From positions 62,001 to 126,000 of the forward strand of contig NZ_JAOQMX010000004.1 in assembly GCF_025960985.1 (NCBI RefSeq): a stretch of 64,000 nucleotides of DNA, read 5' to 3'. Position 1 is the first letter of the stretch; each line of letters opens with the position of its first letter. The position numbers were made by a program, and so were the translations under genes. The notes beneath the pieces are model-generated. The model saw only the letters and a program-made list of their open reading frames with translations. It did not search any database and was not told the origin of the DNA. The stretch is from Flavobacterium psychraerolatum. GTDB lineage: Bacteria; Bacteroidota; Bacteroidia; Flavobacteriales; Flavobacteriaceae. Shown here piece after piece: positions 1,288-62,489 of this stretch.

Positions 1288-2910
1288 ATGAACTGGATAG
1301 ACTATATAGTGGTTATCGTTTACCTAATTGCTTTTCTAGGATTAGGAGTGTTTTTTAAGGAAAACAAAGATGCAAAGGATTATTTCCTAGGAGGTAAGGA
1401 AATGGGATGGTTTCCGTTAAGTTTATCTGCCATGGCAACCCAACTCTCTGCCATCAGTTTTATTTCGGCGCCTGCGTTTGTTGGTTTAGCACAAGGCGGA
1501 GGAATGAAATGGTTGACTTTTGAGTTGGCAGTTCCATTGGCCATGATTGGGATTATTTTGATTATTGTTCCGCCACTTTATCGTGCGAATATTGTAAGTA
1601 TATATGAGTTTGTTGAAAGACGTTTTTCGACTTCTACTCGAATTGTTTTGAGTTTTGTTTTTCAAATTAGCCGTTCGTTATCTACTGGCGTTGCGGTGTA
1701 TACCATAGCCATTATTTTGCAGTCGGTTTTAAATATTAGCTTTCACTACACCATTATATTGATTACTGTAATTACCATTGTTTACTCCTTTATGGGTGGA
1801 ATGAAAGCCGTAGTATGGGGTGATGCTATCCAGATGATTATCCTTTTTGGTGGATTATTGATTTGTATTTATTACGGTTGGGGTTTATTGCAAGCGAATC
1901 CAAATTTCAACGGTTTTGAAACGGAACGTTTGCAAGTGGTAGACATGAATAATTTAGGATTTGATGGTGGTACTTTTGGGTTTTTACCTATGATGTTAGG
2001 AGGTTTGTTTTTATACTTATCTTATTATGGTACCGATCAAACACAAGCACAACGATTATTGTCTGCGAAAGATGAGAAGGCAGCCAAAAATATATTATTA
2101 GCCAATGGATTGTTGCGTTTTCCAGTCGTGTTGACCTATTGTATTATGGGATTAATCATTGGAGCTTTGGTACATTTAACGCCTGATTTCATGAGTGAAA
2201 TTGCAGCGGTTACGCAAAAGCATTATCCAAAAGAGTTTGCAACCAGCGGTATTAAACCAGATTTGATGTTGCCTGTTTTTATCATGAAATATTTACCTCA
2301 TGGTATGATTGGAATTTTGATTGTCGGAATTTTATCGGCAGCTATGTCTTCTGTGAGTTCTACGATCAACTCTTTGGGTGCGGTAACAGTAGAGGATCTT
2401 TTTAATAGAGGTAAAGTGAAATTGAGTCAAGCAAAATATATGAAATTGTCTAAAATTTCTATTGTATTTTGGGGGTTTGTTTGTATTGCTTCAGCCTATC
2501 TTTTTGGGAATACGGGAGGAACGGTGATAGAATTGATTAATATGATTTCGTCACAATTTTACGGACCTATATTAGCCACTTTTATTATCGCTATTTTGGT
2601 CAAAAGAGTGAATTATATTGGGATGAATGTGGGGATTGTAGGTGGGGTTTTGATTAATATTAGTATTAAATATTTCTTTGATGATATTTTCTGGATTTGG
2701 TTTAACCTTACTGGTTTTGTGATCACTTTTGTGTTGGCATTAGTAGTTAGTGCTTTGTTTAAAACAGAGAAAAATAAAGATTTTAATATTGAATTTAAAG
2801 TAAAAAGAGAAGATGTTTTGTCAAGAGATGTTATCATCTTACTAATCTTTTTTGTTATTATTTTGGGAGTTAGTTTTAGTTTGCCATCCATTTTGGCTGG
2901 AATACGCTAA
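1288..2910 (+). CDS. Sodium:solute symporter (SSS/SLC5 family)
   Basis: A 540-residue polytopic inner-membrane protein with about 13-14 hydrophobic helices. The N-terminus is typical of SSS transporters: a first helix, then a D-Y-F-L-G-G type segment near residues 33-38, and a helix rich in small residues with LSAISFISAPAF around residues 55-66. It should take up a sugar or organic acid by coupling to Na+. The gene starts 20 bp after the glycoside hydrolase and is likely co-transcribed with it, so it may import that enzyme's substrate or product. The exact substrate cannot be read from the sequence. Confidence 0.9.
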   Translation: MNWIDYIVVIVYLIAFLGLGVFFKENKDAKDYFLGGKEMGWFPLSLSAMATQLSAISFISAPAFVGLAQGGGMKWLTFELAVPLAMIGIILIIVPPLYRANIVSIYEFVERRFSTSTRIVLSFVFQISRSLSTGVAVYTIAIILQSVLNISFHYTIILITVITIVYSFMGGMKAVVWGDAIQMIILFGGLLICIYYGWGLLQANPNFNGFETERLQVVDMNNLGFDGGTFGFLPMMLGGLFLYLSYYGTDQTQAQRLLSAKDEKAAKNILLANGLLRFPVVLTYCIMGLIIGALVHLTPDFMSEIAAVTQKHYPKEFATSGIKPDLMLPVFIMKYLPHGMIGILIVGILSAAMSSVSSTINSLGAVTVEDLFNRGKVKLSQAKYMKLSKISIVFWGFVCIASAYLFGNTGGTVIELINMISSQFYGPILATFIIAILVKRVNYIGMNVGIVGGVLINISIKYFFDDIFWIWFNLTGFVITFVLALVVSALFKTEKNKDFNIEFKVKREDVLSRDVIILLIFFVIILGVSFSLPSILAGIR

Positions 2911-2943
2911 TAAGTATAAAATAATATTTGGTTGAACGGGTTT

Positions 2944-3070
2944 GCGTGAGGGATAGGAATAAGCTACCGAAGTAGCATGGATAGCCCGACAGCTTCCTGA
3001 AAAAGGGCACCTGTACGCAAAGATAATTTAGCCCTTTTTTGAGGATGGTGGCACGCCCAAATAATAATTT
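2944..3070 (+). repeat. Dispersed structured repeat, family A, copy 1
   Basis: It opens with GCGTGAGGGATAG and closes with GGCACGCCCAAATAATAATT, so the outer GCGTG and CACGC ends are complementary. Inside are the hairpin GCTAC-CGAA-GTAGC, the box GGATAGCCCGAC, and a second hairpin with arms AAAAAGGGC and GCCCTTTTTT. The same outer boxes and order recur at 20029-20155 and, inverted, at 45971-46080. It fills most of the gap between the symporter and the glycerate kinase; the rest (3071-3212) shows no gene. Confidence 0.8.
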
Positions 3071-3212
3071 TAAAAAGGAAATAGATTTAAACAAACACTC
3101 TTGAGAATGCTTACTAGTTCAAAAAGCCTAAATTAGTGCTGCTAATTTGGGTTTTTTATAAATGCAAATTACCACCGAGAGTGTTTTTTTTTAATTGTAA
3201 AACGTAAAAGCG

Positions 3213-52054: not shown

Positions 52055-52873
52055 ATGAATCTTACGTACATTATTATTGATGACAATATAAAAAGTGCTG
52101 AAATAACGAAAACTATCACAGATAGTTTTTCGGAACTTTCCTATTTGGGTTCAGCACATGATCATGAAAGTGGTCTTGATTTGATACTTGAGTCTCGTCC
52201 CAAAATTGTTTTTCTAGAGATAGACCCTAAAAATAAAAATAGTAATTTGTCTTTACAACTGATTAATGACATCTCTAGTTTCCTTAAAGTTGTTCCGAAA
52301 ATCATTATTACTACTTCAAAAAAAGACTTGGCTTTTGACGCTATTCAATATGGTGTAACAGATTATATTTTAAAGCCGGTTACTAAAATCCATTTAACGA
52401 AGTTGCTACTAAAAATTGAAAAGGTAGCTTTAGTTCAAGATACTGTTGAATCAATAGACCATGTTGAAGACGCAACATCCTGCAAACCGGTACTTAATTT
52501 ATCCAAAGTAACTGGGATTAAGACTCCATTTATACTTTGTATTAAATCATATGGTGACTACAGGTACATTGACTCAAGGGATATTACTTATTTTCAGGCA
52601 GACAATAACTCTACCGATATTCACTTGAATAACGGAGAAATGATTACTGCTTTTAAAACTTTAAAACATTTTGAAGGGTTAATGTCTTATCCTTTTGTGC
52701 GCATTCACAATAGTTATATCGTAAATAGTAATTATATTTCTAGAATACATACAGGTAATGCTATTTGTTTTATCAAGAATTCGGTAATAAAATTGCCATT
52801 CTCCAGATCTTATAAAATAAATATAGACTTAATTATTGGTAAGATTTCAAATGGTAATTACCTCGAAATCTAA
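52055..52873 (+). CDS. LytTR-type response regulator with Glu at the phosphoacceptor site
   Basis: 272 residues from ATG 52055 (MNLTYIIIDDNIKSAEI); an earlier in-frame start at 52007 adds 16 atypical residues. The receiver domain has the acidic pair D9-D10, the conserved Thr in IIITTS and Lys in ILKPV, but the position normally held by the phosphorylated Asp is Glu55 (VFLEID). A C-terminal LytTR DNA-binding domain (about 165-265) contains YIDSRDITYFQAD and FVRIHNSYIVN. No sensor kinase of the LytS type is adjacent. It probably regulates nearby surface-protein genes, but the target is not shown. Confidence 0.88.
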   Translation: MNLTYIIIDDNIKSAEITKTITDSFSELSYLGSAHDHESGLDLILESRPKIVFLEIDPKNKNSNLSLQLINDISSFLKVVPKIIITTSKKDLAFDAIQYGVTDYILKPVTKIHLTKLLLKIEKVALVQDTVESIDHVEDATSCKPVLNLSKVTGIKTPFILCIKSYGDYRYIDSRDITYFQADNNSTDIHLNNGEMITAFKTLKHFEGLMSYPFVRIHNSYIVNSNYISRIHTGNAICFIKNSVIKLPFSRSYKINIDLIIGKISNGNYLEI

Positions 52874-53051
52874 ATAACATTCATTTACCAAGATTTCATA
52901 TCCATTCACTATCAAACAAGTGTATTCTACCATTGAGTTCTTTAAATTGCTGATTTATAATGTATTCCTGTGTAGTTTTACATCAAGATAAAGCGATAAA
53001 CGCCCAACTCTTATAACATGTAAAACAATATAAACATATAAAACTCAAATT

Positions 53052-53363
53052 ATGAAAAAGTCAATTTTAGTATCAGGATTATTCTCGTTAGTAATGGTTT
53101 TAACTTCATTCACAACTGTTGAGACGGTAAGTAGTTCAGGTAACGTTGGTGGAAATAGTGTAGAGGTTTCAGGTTCTGGAGCAGCAAGAAGCACAAAATT
53201 AGATGTGTCAGGTTCTGGAGCAGCAAGAAGTACAAAATTAGATGTGTCAGGATCAGGAGCAGCAAGAAGTACAAAGTTAGATGTATCAGGATCAGGTGCA
53301 GCAAGAAGTACAAAGTTAGATGTATCAGGATCAGGTGCAGCAAGAAGTACAAAACTAGATTAA
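53052..53363 (+). CDS. Small exported protein of five identical 13-residue repeats
   Basis: 103 residues. A signal peptide of about 22-24 residues (MKKSILVSGLFSLVMVLTSF) and a Ser/Gly/Val linker (to residue 38) are followed by five copies of VSGSGAARSTKLD that run exactly to the stop codon. The amino-acid repeats are identical; the DNA copies differ at seven of thirteen codons, always synonymously. GSG turns with alternating beta residues recall the beta-solenoid pattern of GIN/DUF2807 head domains, and Arg/Lys in each unit could be protease sites. It has its own terminator and lies between a LytTR regulator and a histidine kinase. Function unknown. Confidence 0.85.
   Translation: MKKSILVSGLFSLVMVLTSFTTVETVSSSGNVGGNSVEVSGSGAARSTKLDVSGSGAARSTKLDVSGSGAARSTKLDVSGSGAARSTKLDVSGSGAARSTKLD
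53166..53360 (+). repeat. 39-bp tandem repeat, five copies, in-frame
   Basis: Five direct 39-bp units encode VSGSGAARSTKLD. Variable codons are Val1, Gly3, Ser4, Gly5, Ser9, Lys11 and Leu12; all changes are silent. Units 3-5 are closer to one another than to units 1-2. Confidence 0.97.
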
Positions 53364-53389: not shown

Positions 53390-53413
53390 GCTATCAAATT
53401 GATAGCTTTTTTT
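53390..53413 (+). terminator. Terminator of the repeat-protein gene
   Basis: GCTATCAA-A-TTGATAGC followed by seven T, about 27 bp after the stop; it separates the gene from the downstream kinase. Confidence 0.8.
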
Positions 53414-53458: not shown

Positions 53459-55498
53459 TTGTTGAAAAAAACATACATACTTCTATTTCTATTAATTCTT
53501 GCAGGTTGCTCAAAAAAGAAATCTACCTACAAGGTAGAAGATTCTTTAAAAGATAGTCTAATAAATTATTTTGATCTAGCTAATGATCAAACGGTTTCAA
53601 CATCTCGAAGATTTCAAATCACACAAAGAGCTTATAATATAGTGATGAATCAAGAAAATGATTCTATACATCGGGTTAACTTAATTAGAATTGCTAACCG
53701 CTTTTATAATCTGAATAAATTGTTAGATTATGAAAAGACTGTACGTACATTAATTAATAATTCTAAGCAAGCTGATGATACTTTATGTTTAGCTAAAGCT
53801 TATTCTTACCTGGGGGATTATTATGGAGAAATTATAAAACCAGATAGTGCTTATACTTTCTATTTTAAGGCCGAAAAACTATTTTTGACTAGTAATGATT
53901 TTTATAACTTAGGACGTACCAGGTATAATAAAGCTTTTTTACAATATAATTTAAGTGATTATTTGGGGAGTGAAATAGCAGTTTTTAATGCATTAAGAGC
54001 GGTGAAAGGTAAGGATGGTAAAGATTTAATTTTTGATTGTTACAACTTATTAGGAATTCTTTATAATGATTTAGGGGAATTTGCTAAAGCGATAGAATAC
54101 AATGCAAAAGCATATGCTATTATTGATGACGATATAAATTCCTCTATATTGCAGCCTAGAGCTATGTCTTTAAATAATATGGGATTGGTCTATCAAACAA
54201 TGAAGAATAATGAAAAAGCAATCGTGTATTTTGAAAAGGGATTGAGTCAAGAAAATTTATTAATTAACCAACCGTCAGTATATGCAATGCTTTTAGATAA
54301 TTTGGCTTATTCCAAATTTAAAATCGGACAAACAAAAGGAGTAATGAGATTGTTCGAAGAAGCTTTGAAAATTAGAAATAAATTAAATGTAAAAACGGGT
54401 ATTATAATTAACAAGGTTCATTTATCCGAATTTTATGCTTTTGAAAAAGACACAGTTACTGCAATATCCTTAGGTCTTGATGCTTTAGAAACTGCCAAAA
54501 AATCAAACAATAACCGTTACGAATTAGTCCCATTAAAACAATTAGCTTTATTGCAACCCAAAAAAGCAGGTGCTTATACCTCAGAATACCTACGCATAAA
54601 CGACAGTCTCCAAAAAGCAGAGCGTTCCATGGGAAATAAATTCACTCGAATTGAGTATGAGACAGATAAAATTAAAGGAGAATATTCAACCCTTGAACTC
54701 AAGAATCGTAATTTAATTTACCTCTTCGGCTTCTTTATAATCATTGCTTTGTTTTTGTATATTGTAAAATCGCAAGGAACAAAGCATAAAGTGCTTTTAT
54801 ACAAGCAACAACAACAGCAAGCAAATGAATATATCTATAACTTGATTATCAATCAACAAAATATGATTGATACCAGTCGAGTTATGGAAAAAAAACGAGT
54901 TGCTCAAGAATTACACGATGGTGTTTTGGGAAGAATGTTTGGGGTAAGAATGAATCTTGAAGGGTTAAATAGTTTTAATGATGATCTTGCAATTTCGCAA
55001 AGAAAAGAGTATATTATTGAATTAAAAAAAGTAGAACAGGATATTCGTGAAATTTCTCATGAGATGAATAGGGAAAAATCGGAATTAATTAATAACTTCG
55101 TAGCGATAGTTGATAATTTATTTGAAGAACAGCGAAAAACTTTTCCAACAAAACTAATTACAAAAATCGATCGTACAATTCATTGGGATGATTTGACCAA
55201 CTTAATCAAAGTAAATTTGTTTCGAATTATTCAAGAATCGCTTCAAAATTGTAATAAATATGCTAATGCAAAAACTATTAAAATTGAATTATTAAAAATC
55301 AATGGTAATATAAGTTTGGAAATTGCAGATGATGGAGCAGGTTTTAATACAAAAATGAAGAAAAAAGGAATCGGATTACAGAATATGATTTCAAGAGCTA
55401 AAGAGTGTCAAGGCGAATTATATGTTATGTCGAATAAAAATATAGGTACAAAAATTACGGTTATAATACCATTAGAGCAAAAACAAATACCACATTAA
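53459..55498 (+). CDS. TPR-containing sensor histidine kinase (HisKA_3), lipoprotein-type N-terminus
   Basis: 679 residues. TTG start; lipobox LAGC (Cys17) suggests the N-terminus is lipid-anchored outside the inner membrane. A periplasmic TPR array (about 90-400) includes NLLGILYNDLGEFAKAIEYN and NNMGLVYQTMKNNEKAIVYF. One membrane helix (LIYLFGFFIIIALFLYIV, about 420-437), a Gln-rich coiled coil and the kinase core follow. The phosphorylated His is near residue 486 in QELHDGVLG, with N box NLFRIIQESLQNCNKYA, DDGAGF and GIGLQNM. It is followed by its response regulator 4 bp later. Confidence 0.92.
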   Translation: MLKKTYILLFLLILAGCSKKKSTYKVEDSLKDSLINYFDLANDQTVSTSRRFQITQRAYNIVMNQENDSIHRVNLIRIANRFYNLNKLLDYEKTVRTLINNSKQADDTLCLAKAYSYLGDYYGEIIKPDSAYTFYFKAEKLFLTSNDFYNLGRTRYNKAFLQYNLSDYLGSEIAVFNALRAVKGKDGKDLIFDCYNLLGILYNDLGEFAKAIEYNAKAYAIIDDDINSSILQPRAMSLNNMGLVYQTMKNNEKAIVYFEKGLSQENLLINQPSVYAMLLDNLAYSKFKIGQTKGVMRLFEEALKIRNKLNVKTGIIINKVHLSEFYAFEKDTVTAISLGLDALETAKKSNNNRYELVPLKQLALLQPKKAGAYTSEYLRINDSLQKAERSMGNKFTRIEYETDKIKGEYSTLELKNRNLIYLFGFFIIIALFLYIVKSQGTKHKVLLYKQQQQQANEYIYNLIINQQNMIDTSRVMEKKRVAQELHDGVLGRMFGVRMNLEGLNSFNDDLAISQRKEYIIELKKVEQDIREISHEMNREKSELINNFVAIVDNLFEEQRKTFPTKLITKIDRTIHWDDLTNLIKVNLFRIIQESLQNCNKYANAKTIKIELLKINGNISLEIADDGAGFNTKMKKKGIGLQNMISRAKECQGELYVMSNKNIGTKITVIIPLEQKQIPH

Positions 55499-55502
55499 AA
55501 AG

Positions 55503-56189
55503 ATGACTATTGAACCAGTTTCTAACAAAATACATAAAAATATATTAATCGTTGATGATCATCCGTTCATTATTCAGGGATATAAAAATGCAATAACGCG
55601 GTATCAACCTGATGATTACGATTTTTTTATCTCTGAAGCTAAGGATTGCGAGTCTGGCTACAATGCTATTGTAGATCCACATGCTGACTTTGATATTGCT
55701 TTTCTAGACATAAGTATGCCATCATATGAATCTATGAATTTGTATTCAGGTGAAGATTTGGCGAAATTAATTTTGAAACACTCTCCTGATTGTAAAATTA
55801 TAATGTTAACCATGTTTACTGAGTTTTTAAAATTAAAAACAATGATAAATGGGGTTAATCCAATGGGGTTAATCATCAAAAATGACTTAACATTTGATGA
55901 ATTATTACATGCTTTTGATAAAGTAATAAAAGGTAAAATGTATTATAGTAAGTCTATTTTGGAGATGTTGGAGTCGCATGATAACGCTATTGAAATTGAC
56001 TTATTCGATAAGCAAATTTTATTTCATTTATCCAAAGGAACAAAATTGAAGAATATCCCACAATTTATTCCGATATCTTTGAATGCTATAGAATCTCGCA
56101 TCATAAATTTAAAAAAAATATTAAATGTAGTTGATAAAAAAGATAATGAATTAGTTAAGGAAGCAAAAAGTAAGGGGTTGATTTTTTAA
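55503..56189 (+). CDS. Response regulator with divergent LuxR-like output domain
   Basis: 228 residues. The receiver domain has the acidic pair D18-D19 in LIVDDHPF, phosphoacceptor D69 in AFLDISMP, the conserved Thr in IIMLTMF, and Lys in LIIKNDLTF. The C-terminal domain (about 165-228) follows the LuxR/GerE layout, with LFDKQILFHLSKGTKLKNI and ISLNAIESRIINLKKIL and a final KEAKSKGLIF. The usual L-T-x-R-E start is absent. It is coupled to the kinase (4-bp gap) and almost certainly its partner. A palindromic terminator follows. Confidence 0.9.
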   Translation: MTIEPVSNKIHKNILIVDDHPFIIQGYKNAITRYQPDDYDFFISEAKDCESGYNAIVDPHADFDIAFLDISMPSYESMNLYSGEDLAKLILKHSPDCKIIMLTMFTEFLKLKTMINGVNPMGLIIKNDLTFDELLHAFDKVIKGKMYYSKSILEMLESHDNAIEIDLFDKQILFHLSKGTKLKNIPQFIPISLNAIESRIINLKKILNVVDKKDNELVKEAKSKGLIF

Positions 56190-58445: not shown

Positions 58446-61400
58446 TTATCTCTTTAGACTAAAATGAGATTTATATATTTTGCTTGTTTTTTCAAAATTA
58501 TAATTAACAACAAACCAATAATCGTCGGAAGGTAATTCAGTATTGTGGTATCTTCCATCCCATCCGTTGGAGGAGGGGTTAAGTTGAGTGATTAGTTTTC
58601 CATATCGGTCAAAAATAGAGATTACGGCATTGGGCTGTGATGCTAATTCCGGAATATTCCAAAAGTCATTGTAGCCATCATTATTTGGTGTGAAAAATTT
58701 TGGATGATTCAAGACTATTGCAGTGATAATAGTTGGATTGCAATTCCCTTTTTTGTCAATTATTGAAATAGAATGTTCTCCAGAATTTATGTTTTTGAAA
58801 ATGGGACTTTCTTGGTAAGATCCATCATCCAACTTGAATTCATAGCTTCCGTATCCTAGAATTGCAATTGCTGTAACATCAATTTTATCCGTAAATGAAT
58901 CTGAAACATTAATATTAGCAATTGCAGGACTAGATTTTATTATATTAAAGCTAGTTGGATTATACCCACAATCATTACCTATATCTGGTACGTTTTTGGT
59001 GATATCCACATCATAAGTTCCCTCTTGAGTTGCTATAAAATCAGACCCTGTACCTACCAATTCTCCATTTAAGAGCCAGTCAACGGTATATTTTATAGGG
59101 TCCAACCCTGAGTCTATGTATGCAGGATTAAGTAATTCTCCTGTTTTGTAATCAACACATATTACGCCATTTTTTAACTCTAAATTATTTAAAGGGTAAA
59201 TAGTGATATTAAATTTCTTTTCGTCAAAACAGTTTATGTTATCTGTTGCTGTTGCATAGACATATAAAGTTTGGTCTTTTTTTATCTCATCTCCTGCAAA
59301 ATATTTTGTTCCGCTTCCATTTGATTTTTCATAATAATTCCCTTCCGTAAGTTCAGGAAGTGTGTAGGAATTACAAATGGCTATATCAGAGGGTTGGAGC
59401 AAATTGGGAGTTTTAGAAATGGTTATGATAAATTCATTTTCATCTTCACAAATAAATCGTGTGCCATTTTTACCATAGATATAAAGTTTTTGGGTGCTAG
59501 GAATAATGCTTCCAGCATTTAGGAGTGTTCCTTTTCCTCCAGGTTGAGTATAATAATTTCCGCTAGTTAAAGCAGGTAATGTGTAGCTGTTACATGTTTT
59601 TACGTTTACAGGGTTATCAACCTTAATACCAATAATGTTAATGTTGATAGCATTCTCATTATCACAAGAACTTAAGTCAGGCCATTTATTATATAAATAA
59701 ATTACTTGTGTTTGAGTAATGATGGTGCCGGGGGCTATTAATTTTCCTTTACCTTTCGATTCACTGTAGAACAAACCATCCGAAACAGTAGGGATTTTGT
59801 ACGATTTACAAGTCGTAACATCAGTAATGATTGTTAGTTTTGGAAGCTCTCTTATTTCGACCTTAAAACTAGATTCATTCGTACATCCATCTACTATGTT
59901 GTTTATATATATGGTTTTTGAATTAGTGATTTGATCTCCTTCTTTGAGGTGTATACCGGTTCTATTTGGGCCCGTAAAATAATCGCCATGAATCAGTGTG
60001 CTCAAAACATAAGGATCTTCTTTACAACGCAGAACATTCTTTATTTGATCTACTATTGGAATAGGCTTGATGTTAACTTTAAAAAACATATTGTTTGTAC
60101 AATTTGGGATAATCGTAGTGTTTGCATAAATATATATTGTAGTTGACTCTGTAATGGTCGTGCCAAAAGGGATCGATGATCCTGCACCTTCAGGCTCTGT
60201 GTAATATTTACCAGTAGGTAAATCGGGAAGTTTATAACTTCCGCAGGAGGGTTGGTCAATTACACTAGGGATGATTGTTACATTAAATATATTTTGATTA
60301 GCACAGTTTGCCTGTTTAGAATAAACATATATAGATTGAGATTTTGTTATAACTGTTCCAGCAGAAAGTTTTTCACCTAATCCATCGCTAGCTGTGTAGT
60401 ATTCGCCATGAGATAATATGGGTAATTTATAGCTGTTACAAGTTACAACATTGGGTGTAGGGTCTAAAATAGGTAATGGAAGTATGTTGATGGCATAACT
60501 ATCATCTGTGCAGATACTTCCGTTTACAACAGCATAATAATATACCGTTTGGTTGGTAGTAATTTTAGTTCCTGTTGGAAGTAGTGTTCCAGTTCCATCA
60601 GGCCCCCCACTATTGGTATAGAAGTTTCCTATTGATGGATCTGGTACGATGAAAACACCGCAATAGTCCAATGGAATGGAGTATTCATTGCTTATTATGA
60701 CATTAAAAGTAGATTGGTTAGTGCAAGCACTATCACCTGAAATACTATAAATATAAAAGGTACCACTAGTTTCTATAAGATCACCAGCATGTAGCATGGT
60801 TCCCTTACCATCACTTTCCGTATAGTAGTTACCATTAGTTAGCGGGGGAAGTGTGTAACTGACGCATTCTATCACTTTTTCAAGTCTATCTACTAATGGT
60901 TTTGGGTTTACAATGATATCAAACGAAGTAATGTTGAAACAATTTTTGCTTAATATATTGGTCATCCTTACCCAAACTGTATTGACCTTAGGAAATGAAG
61001 TTACGGTGTAATTTGAAGGTAGGGCATTGCTATCGGTAGCCGCATCTTCTGGGCTACTGTGGTAACTTATGGTATATGTATCTGGATCTTGACCATTAAG
61101 GATAATACTATTGTTTATTAGTAAATTAATTTTGTTCCCTGTAGTGTTATCGCATATTTCGATATTGTTCGGCTTTTTGGGTAAAGCAGGCGTATCAAGT
61201 AATAATTGAAATGACTGAATCCAATTACAGAAGGTATTTGTCGTTTTGTTTTTTATTTTGATATAAATTGTTTGTTCTCCAATGTTTTCATAGGTTTGAG
61301 GGTTTTCGATAGCTTTAGTATTTGTTTGTGCATTTGCAGAGGTTTCGTAGTAGAATAATTCATATTTGGTTTCGTCTATTGCTAGTTTTTTAGCATTATT

Positions 61401-62489
61401 GGTTGTTAAGTCATATATGTAGGTCGCTGCTCCAGAATTACAGTTTCTTAAATCTATTGAGTTATTTGTTTTTAAATTTGAGAAAATTATTTTGTCGGTA
61501 ATCACGCAGCTAGTTCCTACTTGTTCAATTACTACTTCATAAGTACCTGCCTGAGTCACCATCAAGGATTCTTTATTTTCTCCAATGATGATTTGATCAT
61601 CTTTTTTCCAAACGTGATGGTATTTTGGGTCGGTTAATCCTGTTTTGATTTCTACCGTATTTCCTTCACAAATAGTTTGATTTGGACCTAGGTCAGCATT
61701 GGTTGTAAAGCTACCAGAGCGTAAAAATACTGCAGAGTCGTAATTAGAGTCATTTGCATCGCCTATCATTAAACGAATACGGTACAAATGATTGGGAGTA
61801 ATAGTTGCCGAAGCGGTTAGTACTTGCGTGTAACCTCTCATGTTTAAGGTAGATGATAAAGGGTCAGAAACAGTGTAAGTCGAAAATAAATTGGAGTTTA
61901 CAGAAGCACATGAGGAGTTGTATTTGTTATCTCTAATGTTTTTCACCGATATTGGATCGCTTGACCCTGGGACAATGGCTAAGTTCTGGGTTGTATTCTC
62001 ATCTAGGTCAGTTAGTAGAAATGCAAAAACATCACTAAAACCGCATTGGTACTCACCATATTCATTCGAAGCAAATAGAAAATCAAAACTAAATTCATTT
62101 GACAAAGGAACAAAATCAAATTGCAAGTAAGCAACATCTGTAATAGGGATATTTTGTCCCGTACTATTACTAATTTTTTGTAAGTCAGGATCAGTATTAG
62201 TATTCAATTCACTGCTCAGATTTAGTCCAGTATAAGGTCCTTCAGTATGTTTTGCAATTCCATTTCGAATAATTACTCCTTCATTTATAGGAAAAGAGGA
62301 GGAGTTGTTATTGAAATAAGCCGTTGATTGATTTGATGAAATCGAAATGTTAGATACTGTTGTACACGAATTACCTAGTAGTAACTGGATTAATTGATTG
62401 GCGTCACGACTACTGTCGTCAACGGTTATTGATTGTGCAAGGATTCCGGTATAGAACACAAGACAAAAAAGTAGGTATAGTTTTTTCAT
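58446..62489 (-). CDS. T9SS type B sorting-domain protein with choice-of-anchor L and eight repeat modules
   Basis: 1347 residues, secreted. The signal peptide (MKKLYLLFCLVFYTGILAQ) is followed by a choice-of-anchor L domain (about 25-265; SFDFLFASNEYGEYQCGFSD) and an Ig-like segment (about 268-345). Eight tandem modules of 60-80 residues (about 540-1100) each begin C-x-S-Y-x-L-P and continue GNYYT, GxGT, AGxxI and LYIY. The C-terminus is a gliding-motility type B sorting domain starting FFTPNNDGYNDFW near residue 1255. Such proteins are exported by T9SS and held at the surface, often as adhesins. Confidence 0.92.
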   Translation of the reverse strand: MKKLYLLFCLVFYTGILAQSITVDDSSRDANQLIQLLLGNSCTTVSNISISSNQSTAYFNNNSSSFPINEGVIIRNGIAKHTEGPYTGLNLSSELNTNTDPDLQKISNSTGQNIPITDVAYLQFDFVPLSNEFSFDFLFASNEYGEYQCGFSDVFAFLLTDLDENTTQNLAIVPGSSDPISVKNIRDNKYNSSCASVNSNLFSTYTVSDPLSSTLNMRGYTQVLTASATITPNHLYRIRLMIGDANDSNYDSAVFLRSGSFTTNADLGPNQTICEGNTVEIKTGLTDPKYHHVWKKDDQIIIGENKESLMVTQAGTYEVVIEQVGTSCVITDKIIFSNLKTNNSIDLRNCNSGAATYIYDLTTNNAKKLAIDETKYELFYYETSANAQTNTKAIENPQTYENIGEQTIYIKIKNKTTNTFCNWIQSFQLLLDTPALPKKPNNIEICDNTTGNKINLLINNSIILNGQDPDTYTISYHSSPEDAATDSNALPSNYTVTSFPKVNTVWVRMTNILSKNCFNITSFDIIVNPKPLVDRLEKVIECVSYTLPPLTNGNYYTESDGKGTMLHAGDLIETSGTFYIYSISGDSACTNQSTFNVIISNEYSIPLDYCGVFIVPDPSIGNFYTNSGGPDGTGTLLPTGTKITTNQTVYYYAVVNGSICTDDSYAINILPLPILDPTPNVVTCNSYKLPILSHGEYYTASDGLGEKLSAGTVITKSQSIYVYSKQANCANQNIFNVTIIPSVIDQPSCGSYKLPDLPTGKYYTEPEGAGSSIPFGTTITESTTIYIYANTTIIPNCTNNMFFKVNIKPIPIVDQIKNVLRCKEDPYVLSTLIHGDYFTGPNRTGIHLKEGDQITNSKTIYINNIVDGCTNESSFKVEIRELPKLTIITDVTTCKSYKIPTVSDGLFYSESKGKGKLIAPGTIITQTQVIYLYNKWPDLSSCDNENAININIIGIKVDNPVNVKTCNSYTLPALTSGNYYTQPGGKGTLLNAGSIIPSTQKLYIYGKNGTRFICEDENEFIITISKTPNLLQPSDIAICNSYTLPELTEGNYYEKSNGSGTKYFAGDEIKKDQTLYVYATATDNINCFDEKKFNITIYPLNNLELKNGVICVDYKTGELLNPAYIDSGLDPIKYTVDWLLNGELVGTGSDFIATQEGTYDVDITKNVPDIGNDCGYNPTSFNIIKSSPAIANINVSDSFTDKIDVTAIAILGYGSYEFKLDDGSYQESPIFKNINSGEHSISIIDKKGNCNPTIITAIVLNHPKFFTPNNDGYNDFWNIPELASQPNAVISIFDRYGKLITQLNPSSNGWDGRYHNTELPSDDYWFVVNYNFEKTSKIYKSHFSLKR
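59190..60880 (-). repeat. Eight-module repeat region in the T9SS cargo gene
   Basis: Modules start at CVSYTLPPL, CGVFIVPDP, CNSYKLPIL, CGSYKLPDL, CKEDPYVLS, CKSYKIPTV, CNSYTLPAL and CNSYTLPEL. They share the pattern G-x-Y-Y-T, then G-x-G-T, then I-x-x-x-Q-x-L-Y-I-Y and a C-x-N/D-E. The fifth is the most divergent. The copies are diverged in DNA, so the array is old. Confidence 0.85.

Follow-up and report, generated by a model that had tools for sequence, protein, structure and literature searches.

A repeat-bearing exported peptide precursor and its co-diverging sensor kinase in Flavobacterium: a candidate peptide-pheromone cassette

A short gene in Flavobacterium psychraerolatum encodes a putatively exported protein that ends in five copies of one 13-residue peptide, identical in amino acids and variable in DNA. 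A preliminary description of the locus had offered a multi-copy peptide signal precursor or a small surface fibre. We analysed the gene within its window (the whole stretch of 64,000 nucleotides), its neighbours and its relatives across the genus.

A precursor of identical units and its family

The precursor gene and its parts are as follows.

53052..53363, forward strand: putative exported multi-copy peptide precursor, 103 aa (sequence, open reading frame list, family comparison)
53052..53117, forward strand: conserved leader MKKSILVSGLFSLVMVLTSFTT, presumptive Sec-type signal (alignment of 23 family members)
53118..53165, forward strand: variable pro-segment VETVSSSGNVGGNSVE (sequence; poorly conserved among relatives)
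53166..53360, forward strand: five identical 13-residue units VSGSGAARSTKLD, the proposed mature ligand (Tandem Repeats Finder, copy comparison)

The precursor consists of MKKSILVSGLFSLVMVLTSFTTVETVSSSGNVGGNSVE followed by five exact copies of VSGSGAARSTKLD (53166-53204, 53205-53243, 53244-53282, 53283-53321 and 53322-53360) and directly by the stop codon TAA; Tandem Repeats Finder returns a 39-bp unit in 5.1 copies. Codons for V1, G3, S4, G5, S9, K11 and L12 vary among the copies, and every change is silent. Both the five identical repeats behind a leader and the synonymous variation at 7 of 13 codons had been described beforehand, and the codon comparison bears them out. Neighbouring copies carry 9 synonymous differences over 42.3 sites against no non-synonymous difference over 113.7 sites. 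By our own arithmetic the odds of nine silent changes out of nine, were there no selection on the protein, are about 8e-6, an estimate that treats as independent changes which, from one copy to its neighbour, are not entirely so. The reading frame is not a chance one, because orthologs occupy the same locus throughout the genus. No Pfam or NCBIfam family matches the precursor above its curated cut-off. Pfam also gives CW_7 at E 0.008, whose 16 bits fall short of the cut-off of 25; we rejected it as a short chance match, and a weak second match in the same genome (E 0.35) also looks like chance.

The gene is a member of a large, unnamed family. The comparison with related genomes that had been suggested as a check, a search of 100 relatives, recovers homologs across the genus, with species-specific units and a low within-gene pN/pS. 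The leader is constant among them (MKKxILTIGLFSLVMVLTSFTTPE). The unit varies by species, yet its copies within each gene are nearly always identical: relatives carry, for example, six copies of IIGGNATGGNMKLD, four of IIGQGATGGNMKVD, six of a EIGGRSSQGEFA-type unit, or four of DEGGTRRIKTD with short linkers. Periods in relatives range from 11 to 16 residues and the sequences are unrelated; some precursors have divergent spacers and some hold single unit copies. Common to most members is a unit ending in K/R-x-D. Some precursors in the non-tandem species (L083-L131) bear two different units ending in K-x-D; one of these, L122, has IDGGATGKQKKGD and SVNQSIGTDKKVD, which may be read as two signals or as one signal and a decoy.

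For 94 distinct genes taken together, comparison of the copies inside each gene gives 545.9 synonymous and 37.1 non-synonymous differences, a pN/pS of 0.022 that is biased downwards by the choice of segments on amino-acid similarity. This corresponds to differences at about 31% of synonymous and 0.7% of non-synonymous sites. With silent-site divergence among the copies at about 0.31, their identity does not come from recent duplication, and the earlier proposal of strong selection on the unit itself holds. Identical cores also persist where the spacers between them have diverged (L097, L110, L083-L085, L093, L101); in L097, with three copies of IDGGGSAGGGRKQD, and in L083-L085, L093 and L101 the spacers differ completely. 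The preliminary description had counted amino-acid change in relatives as evidence against such selection. Units do change between species, but they do so in all copies of a gene at once and in parallel with the sensor described below; that test was mis-specified. Release by cutting at basic residues, also proposed there, finds no support: a dibasic site is conserved nowhere in the family, and we reject dibasic cleavage.

The cassette and its receptor-like kinase

In the window only four genes lie between glyS and thiL, encoding a LytTR regulator, the peptide precursor, a histidine kinase and a response regulator. The features around the precursor gene are as follows.

52055..52873, forward strand: LytTR-type regulator with a receiver in which Glu replaces the phospho-acceptor Asp (VFLEID; Pfam LytTR 9e-16, Response_reg 1.1e-7)
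52882..52932, forward strand: three LytTR-like direct repeats, the probable operator of the peptide gene (CATTTACCA at 52882-52890, CATTCACTA at 52903-52911, ATTCTACCA at 52924-52932; period ~21 bp)
53390..53413, forward strand: hairpin and T-run between the peptide and kinase genes, terminator-like or attenuator-like
53459..55498, forward strand: histidine kinase with TPR sensor, TTG start (Pfam HisKA_3, HATPase_c; AF2 model mf9dcb4b940c3)
55503..56189, forward strand: NarL-type response regulator that retains the receiver Asp and presumably pairs with the kinase (Response_reg 1.2e-10)

The order LytTR gene, peptide gene, TPR kinase gene and response regulator gene is kept in 20 of 20 loci, mostly inside comF-glyS-...-thiL-pfkB. 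Among the 80 Flavobacterium loci obtained by a kinase-anchored search of named genomes, the peptide gene is directly upstream of the kinase gene in 79, and the remaining locus is at a contig end. By a mechanical criterion, a small exported-looking open reading frame precedes 76 of 78 kinase genes and 1 of 436 control genes (p=1e-87). An apparent lack of the peptide at three paralogous loci (L139-L141) was traced to this criterion: at least L140 and L141 do carry the same motif at the C-terminus, and L139 has a close variant. At L160, L161 and L165 no peptide was seen, and the kinase gene there apparently follows a ribosomal protein gene. The cassette includes no dedicated processing or modifying enzyme of the AgrB or ComQ type, in the window or in relatives with the same gene order, and no exporter, dedicated protease or immunity gene, in the window or in the 20 loci compared for gene order. 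Elsewhere in the window (58446-62489, reverse strand) a 1347-aa exported repeat protein has a FFTPNNDGYNDFW-type C-terminal domain and resembles type IX secretion cargo.

Of 76 aligned orthologs of the LytTR protein, 74 have Glu where the phospho-acceptor Asp would stand, and the protein is perhaps constitutively active; the Asp of the downstream response regulator is kept in 80 of 80. Over 75 loci, 122 LytTR-like sites were found upstream of the peptide gene against 15.8 expected from shuffles, spaced by 21 bp in 56 cases and by 42 bp in 19. A 21-bp period is the spacing expected of LytTR operators, and the three direct repeats are probably the operator of the peptide gene. A comparable hairpin with a T-rich tail stands between the peptide and kinase genes in 61 of 75 loci and would allow more peptide than kinase to be produced.

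The kinase begins with a lipobox-like LILAGC whose Cys17 is invariant in 63 orthologs. Pfam and AF2 place a TPR superhelix at residues 34-365 and a transmembrane segment at ~415-437, followed by HisKA_3 and HATPase_c; the TPR domain, lying between the lipobox-like N-terminus and the transmembrane segment, is therefore predicted to be outside the cytoplasm. For the TPR part the AF2 model has high confidence (pLDDT ~90), and the best PDB matches of this part by Foldseek are the peptide-binding TPR of LGN and Rap in complex with its pheromone; the matches of the kinase part are DesK/VraS. Invariant residues occupy concave TPR positions (N80, N84, Y117, N196, N240, N281 and E324, with K113 at 99%), and conserved residues are over-represented at such positions relative to non-structural ones (p=0.001).

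Co-divergence of the unit with the sensor

Divergence in step with the unit is confined to the sensor. Over 38 species the distance between units correlates with the distance between TPR domains once the kinase domain and ThiL are removed (partial Mantel r=0.55, p=0.0005), whereas the correlation with the kinase domain is -0.28; among related sequences, a Mantel test can make an association look more significant than it is. The relation is kept within the GGNxKxD class (r=0.30, p=0.0005) and within the 13/14-mers (r=0.22, p=0.022).

Close pairs of loci reveal a mosaic, in which a hypervariable block begins at the peptide repeats, stops where the sensor ends and sits in more conserved DNA. L095 and L099, whose units are one residue apart, are 98% identical in DNA upstream of the LytTR gene and 100% in the leader, fall to 65-80% in the stretch that runs from the intergenic region up to and including the TPR part, and return to 96-99% for the kinase and 97% for the response regulator. 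L080 and L082, with identical units, present the reverse pattern, with 97-100% identity in the peptide-TPR block and 88-93% in the flanks. A counter-example is the pair L099 and L080, which have the core GGSRNIKTD in common although their TPR domains are 30% diverged; the full units differ outside the core. The contrast between same-core and different-core pairs is weak (6 same-core pairs, p=0.018).

At the level of sites, covariation with the unit clusters near kinase residues 204-206 and 228-274. The covarying TPR columns as a class show no enrichment on the concave face (6 of 13 registered top columns). Within these clusters such enrichment is weak, and we therefore claim no mapped specificity pocket.

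A second and unrelated peptide family gives a similar picture. Outside the window, the same genome has another cassette of peptide, TPR kinase and regulator (G000:C21; L133:1104-1337 and 1396-3111), in which a 77-aa exported-type peptide ending in EGPGDDCITIYPPK, unrelated to the five-repeat precursor, precedes a TPR kinase with a lipobox-like start and a response regulator. Peptides of this family in relatives end in variable (D)GPGD...PPKP motifs, and they co-diverge with the TPR domain (r=0.47, p=0.0005) and not with the kinase domain (-0.11). Their leaders are lipobox-like, and on this feature the precursors may stay membrane-bound. A small exported open reading frame is found at the same place in 36 of 40 more distant kinases, other genera included, and among these distant loci are independent tandem units: CDDCAHDSDDRETLA in six copies (L256), ATDDDEVGEPQPSNGEV in five (L258) and DSPDGDDIPDIET in three (L261). 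Six Flavobacterium genomes (G006, G042, G049, G052, G054, G057) have four to six TPR kinases of the second family each, often adjacent. At L227, L228 and L231 two small exported peptide genes stand in tandem upstream of one TPR kinase; at L227 and L231 both peptides have similar hydrophobic-basic tails, such as LVIIIKRD and PIIIIKRD.

A proposed ligand and the alternatives to it

We propose that the 13-residue unit, supplied by a multi-copy exported precursor, is the ligand of the neighbouring kinase, a reading drawn from the comparison of sequences and predicted structures, to which we give a probability of roughly 0.7. The conserved leader would take the precursor across the inner membrane, and a protease would cut it into units ending in K-x-D. 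These would bind to the kinase encoded directly downstream, in the concave groove of its extracytoplasmic TPR domain, and the kinase would then signal through its paired response regulator. The LytTR pseudo-receiver protein probably drives the precursor promoter via the three direct repeats. The unit and the TPR sensor would form one exchangeable specificity module, which would therefore most likely make this self-produced pheromone signalling with species-specific pherotypes. That the unit acts as a released pheromone is a narrower proposition, to which we give somewhat better than even odds; export, processing, binding, release from the cell, density sensing and action between cells are all steps that we infer. 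Of the two possibilities first offered for this gene, the multi-copy signal precursor is strongly supported by synteny with the TPR kinase, concerted species-specific units and ligand-receptor co-divergence.

The most serious competitor, which we nevertheless consider unlikely, is a cell-autonomous one, in which the precursor remains in the periplasm and binds the kinase of its own cell, acting either as co-sensor or as inhibitor; it might, for instance, report envelope proteolysis, several copies would raise avidity, and no message would pass between cells. Co-divergence and multi-copy units would be explained equally well; the cassette has no exporter, and the lipobox-like leaders of the second family would allow membrane anchoring. 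Against it, rapid, concerted, species-specific turnover and exchange of the module between species are typical of recognition of self and non-self and less expected of an internal adaptor. A small, exported, hypervariable peptide beside a two-component system could also be a species-specific, bacteriocin-like antimicrobial that the system regulates or protects against. We regard this as very improbable: the units are hydrophilic, the cassette lacks immunity and exporter genes, and co-divergence with a fused sensor demands ligand recognition in any case. A double-glycine-leader bacteriocin or pheromone was likewise rejected, the leader being Sec-like and the cassette having no peptidase-containing ABC exporter.

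Two further accounts carry almost no weight with us. The suggestion of a beta-solenoid, amyloid or other surface fibre came from the tandem repeats and their GSG/LDV rhythm, and the AF2 model of the precursor, made as had been advised, does contain short, low-confidence strands. Its pLDDT is ~40 over the repeats, a score with which an amyloid is compatible; relatives keep neither unit length nor sequence, their unrelated units of 11-16 residues coming in some cases as single copies or between divergent spacers, and a structural protein would not account for a sensor kinase that is obligately linked to it and co-diverges with it. The fibre is left without support. Tandem arrays are prone to homogenisation, and a functionless recent expansion could in principle be kept uniform by gene conversion only; the excess of synonymous over non-synonymous differences contradicts this, and the identical cores across diverged spacers speak against it as well.

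Set beside known systems, the proposed ligand-kinase pair would work like agr and comQXPA but is not one of them. As there, a small peptide precursor, exported to judge by its leader, adjoins a histidine kinase and a response regulator, and a hypervariable ligand-sensor block is joined to a conserved kinase and regulator as in matched pherotype modules; ComP has a variable N-terminus and a conserved cytoplasmic domain (PMC4008528). The cassette differs in having no ComQ or AgrB enzyme, in a ligand that is multi-copy and apparently linear, in a predicted extracytoplasmic TPR sensor where theirs is a multi-pass membrane domain, and in belonging to a phylum other than the Firmicutes. With the RRNPPA receptors (Rap, PlcR, NprR, AimR) it has in common a TPR superhelix, which there reads a short linear pheromone and here, with its fold and conserved concave residues, is proposed to bind one; RRNPPA pheromone precursors are exported by Sec/SPI or SPII (PMC9765709). 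Those receptors are cytoplasmic phosphatases or HTH regulators that read a re-imported peptide, whereas the TPR domain of this cassette forms part of a membrane histidine kinase and has a predicted extracytoplasmic location.

The precursor of yeast alpha-factor has a signal peptide, a pro-region and several identical tandem copies of a 13-residue pheromone, an architecture also seen here in the presumptive signal, pro-segment and 13-residue units. The bacterial precursor lacks KR/EAEA processing spacers, its units abutting head-to-tail or being separated by unconserved spacers, and the yeast receptor is a GPCR rather than a histidine kinase. By domain content the kinase is an ordinary member of the Bacteroidota TPR-sensor HisKA_3 two-component systems. 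Titles and abstracts from a literature set that excludes preprints and most subscription journals contain no description of the five-repeat peptide or any peptide-TPR-kinase pair, of an adjacent peptide ligand for Bacteroidota TPR/HisKA_3 kinases, or of a peptide system of this kind for Bacteroidota.

Most known examples of peptide quorum sensing come from Gram-positive bacteria; for the Gram-negative group studied here, the cassette would represent a form of peptide signalling not described before. We think it slightly more probable than its contrary that Flavobacteriaceae possess a large undescribed class of peptide pheromones, with often multi-copy precursors and lipoprotein-like TPR kinases, several per genome, whose peptide and sensor are exchanged between species as a pherotype cassette. 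If so, this would be a general mechanism of peptide communication for Bacteroidota, would join the peptide-reading TPR fold of RRNPPA to a membrane kinase, and would include, to our knowledge, the first alpha-factor-like multi-copy pheromone precursor in bacteria. The ligand could be read from the genome and then synthesised, which offers an experimental handle, and dozens of matched sister-species pairs, down to one peptide residue apart, would make these bacteria a natural laboratory for the co-evolution of ligand and receptor.
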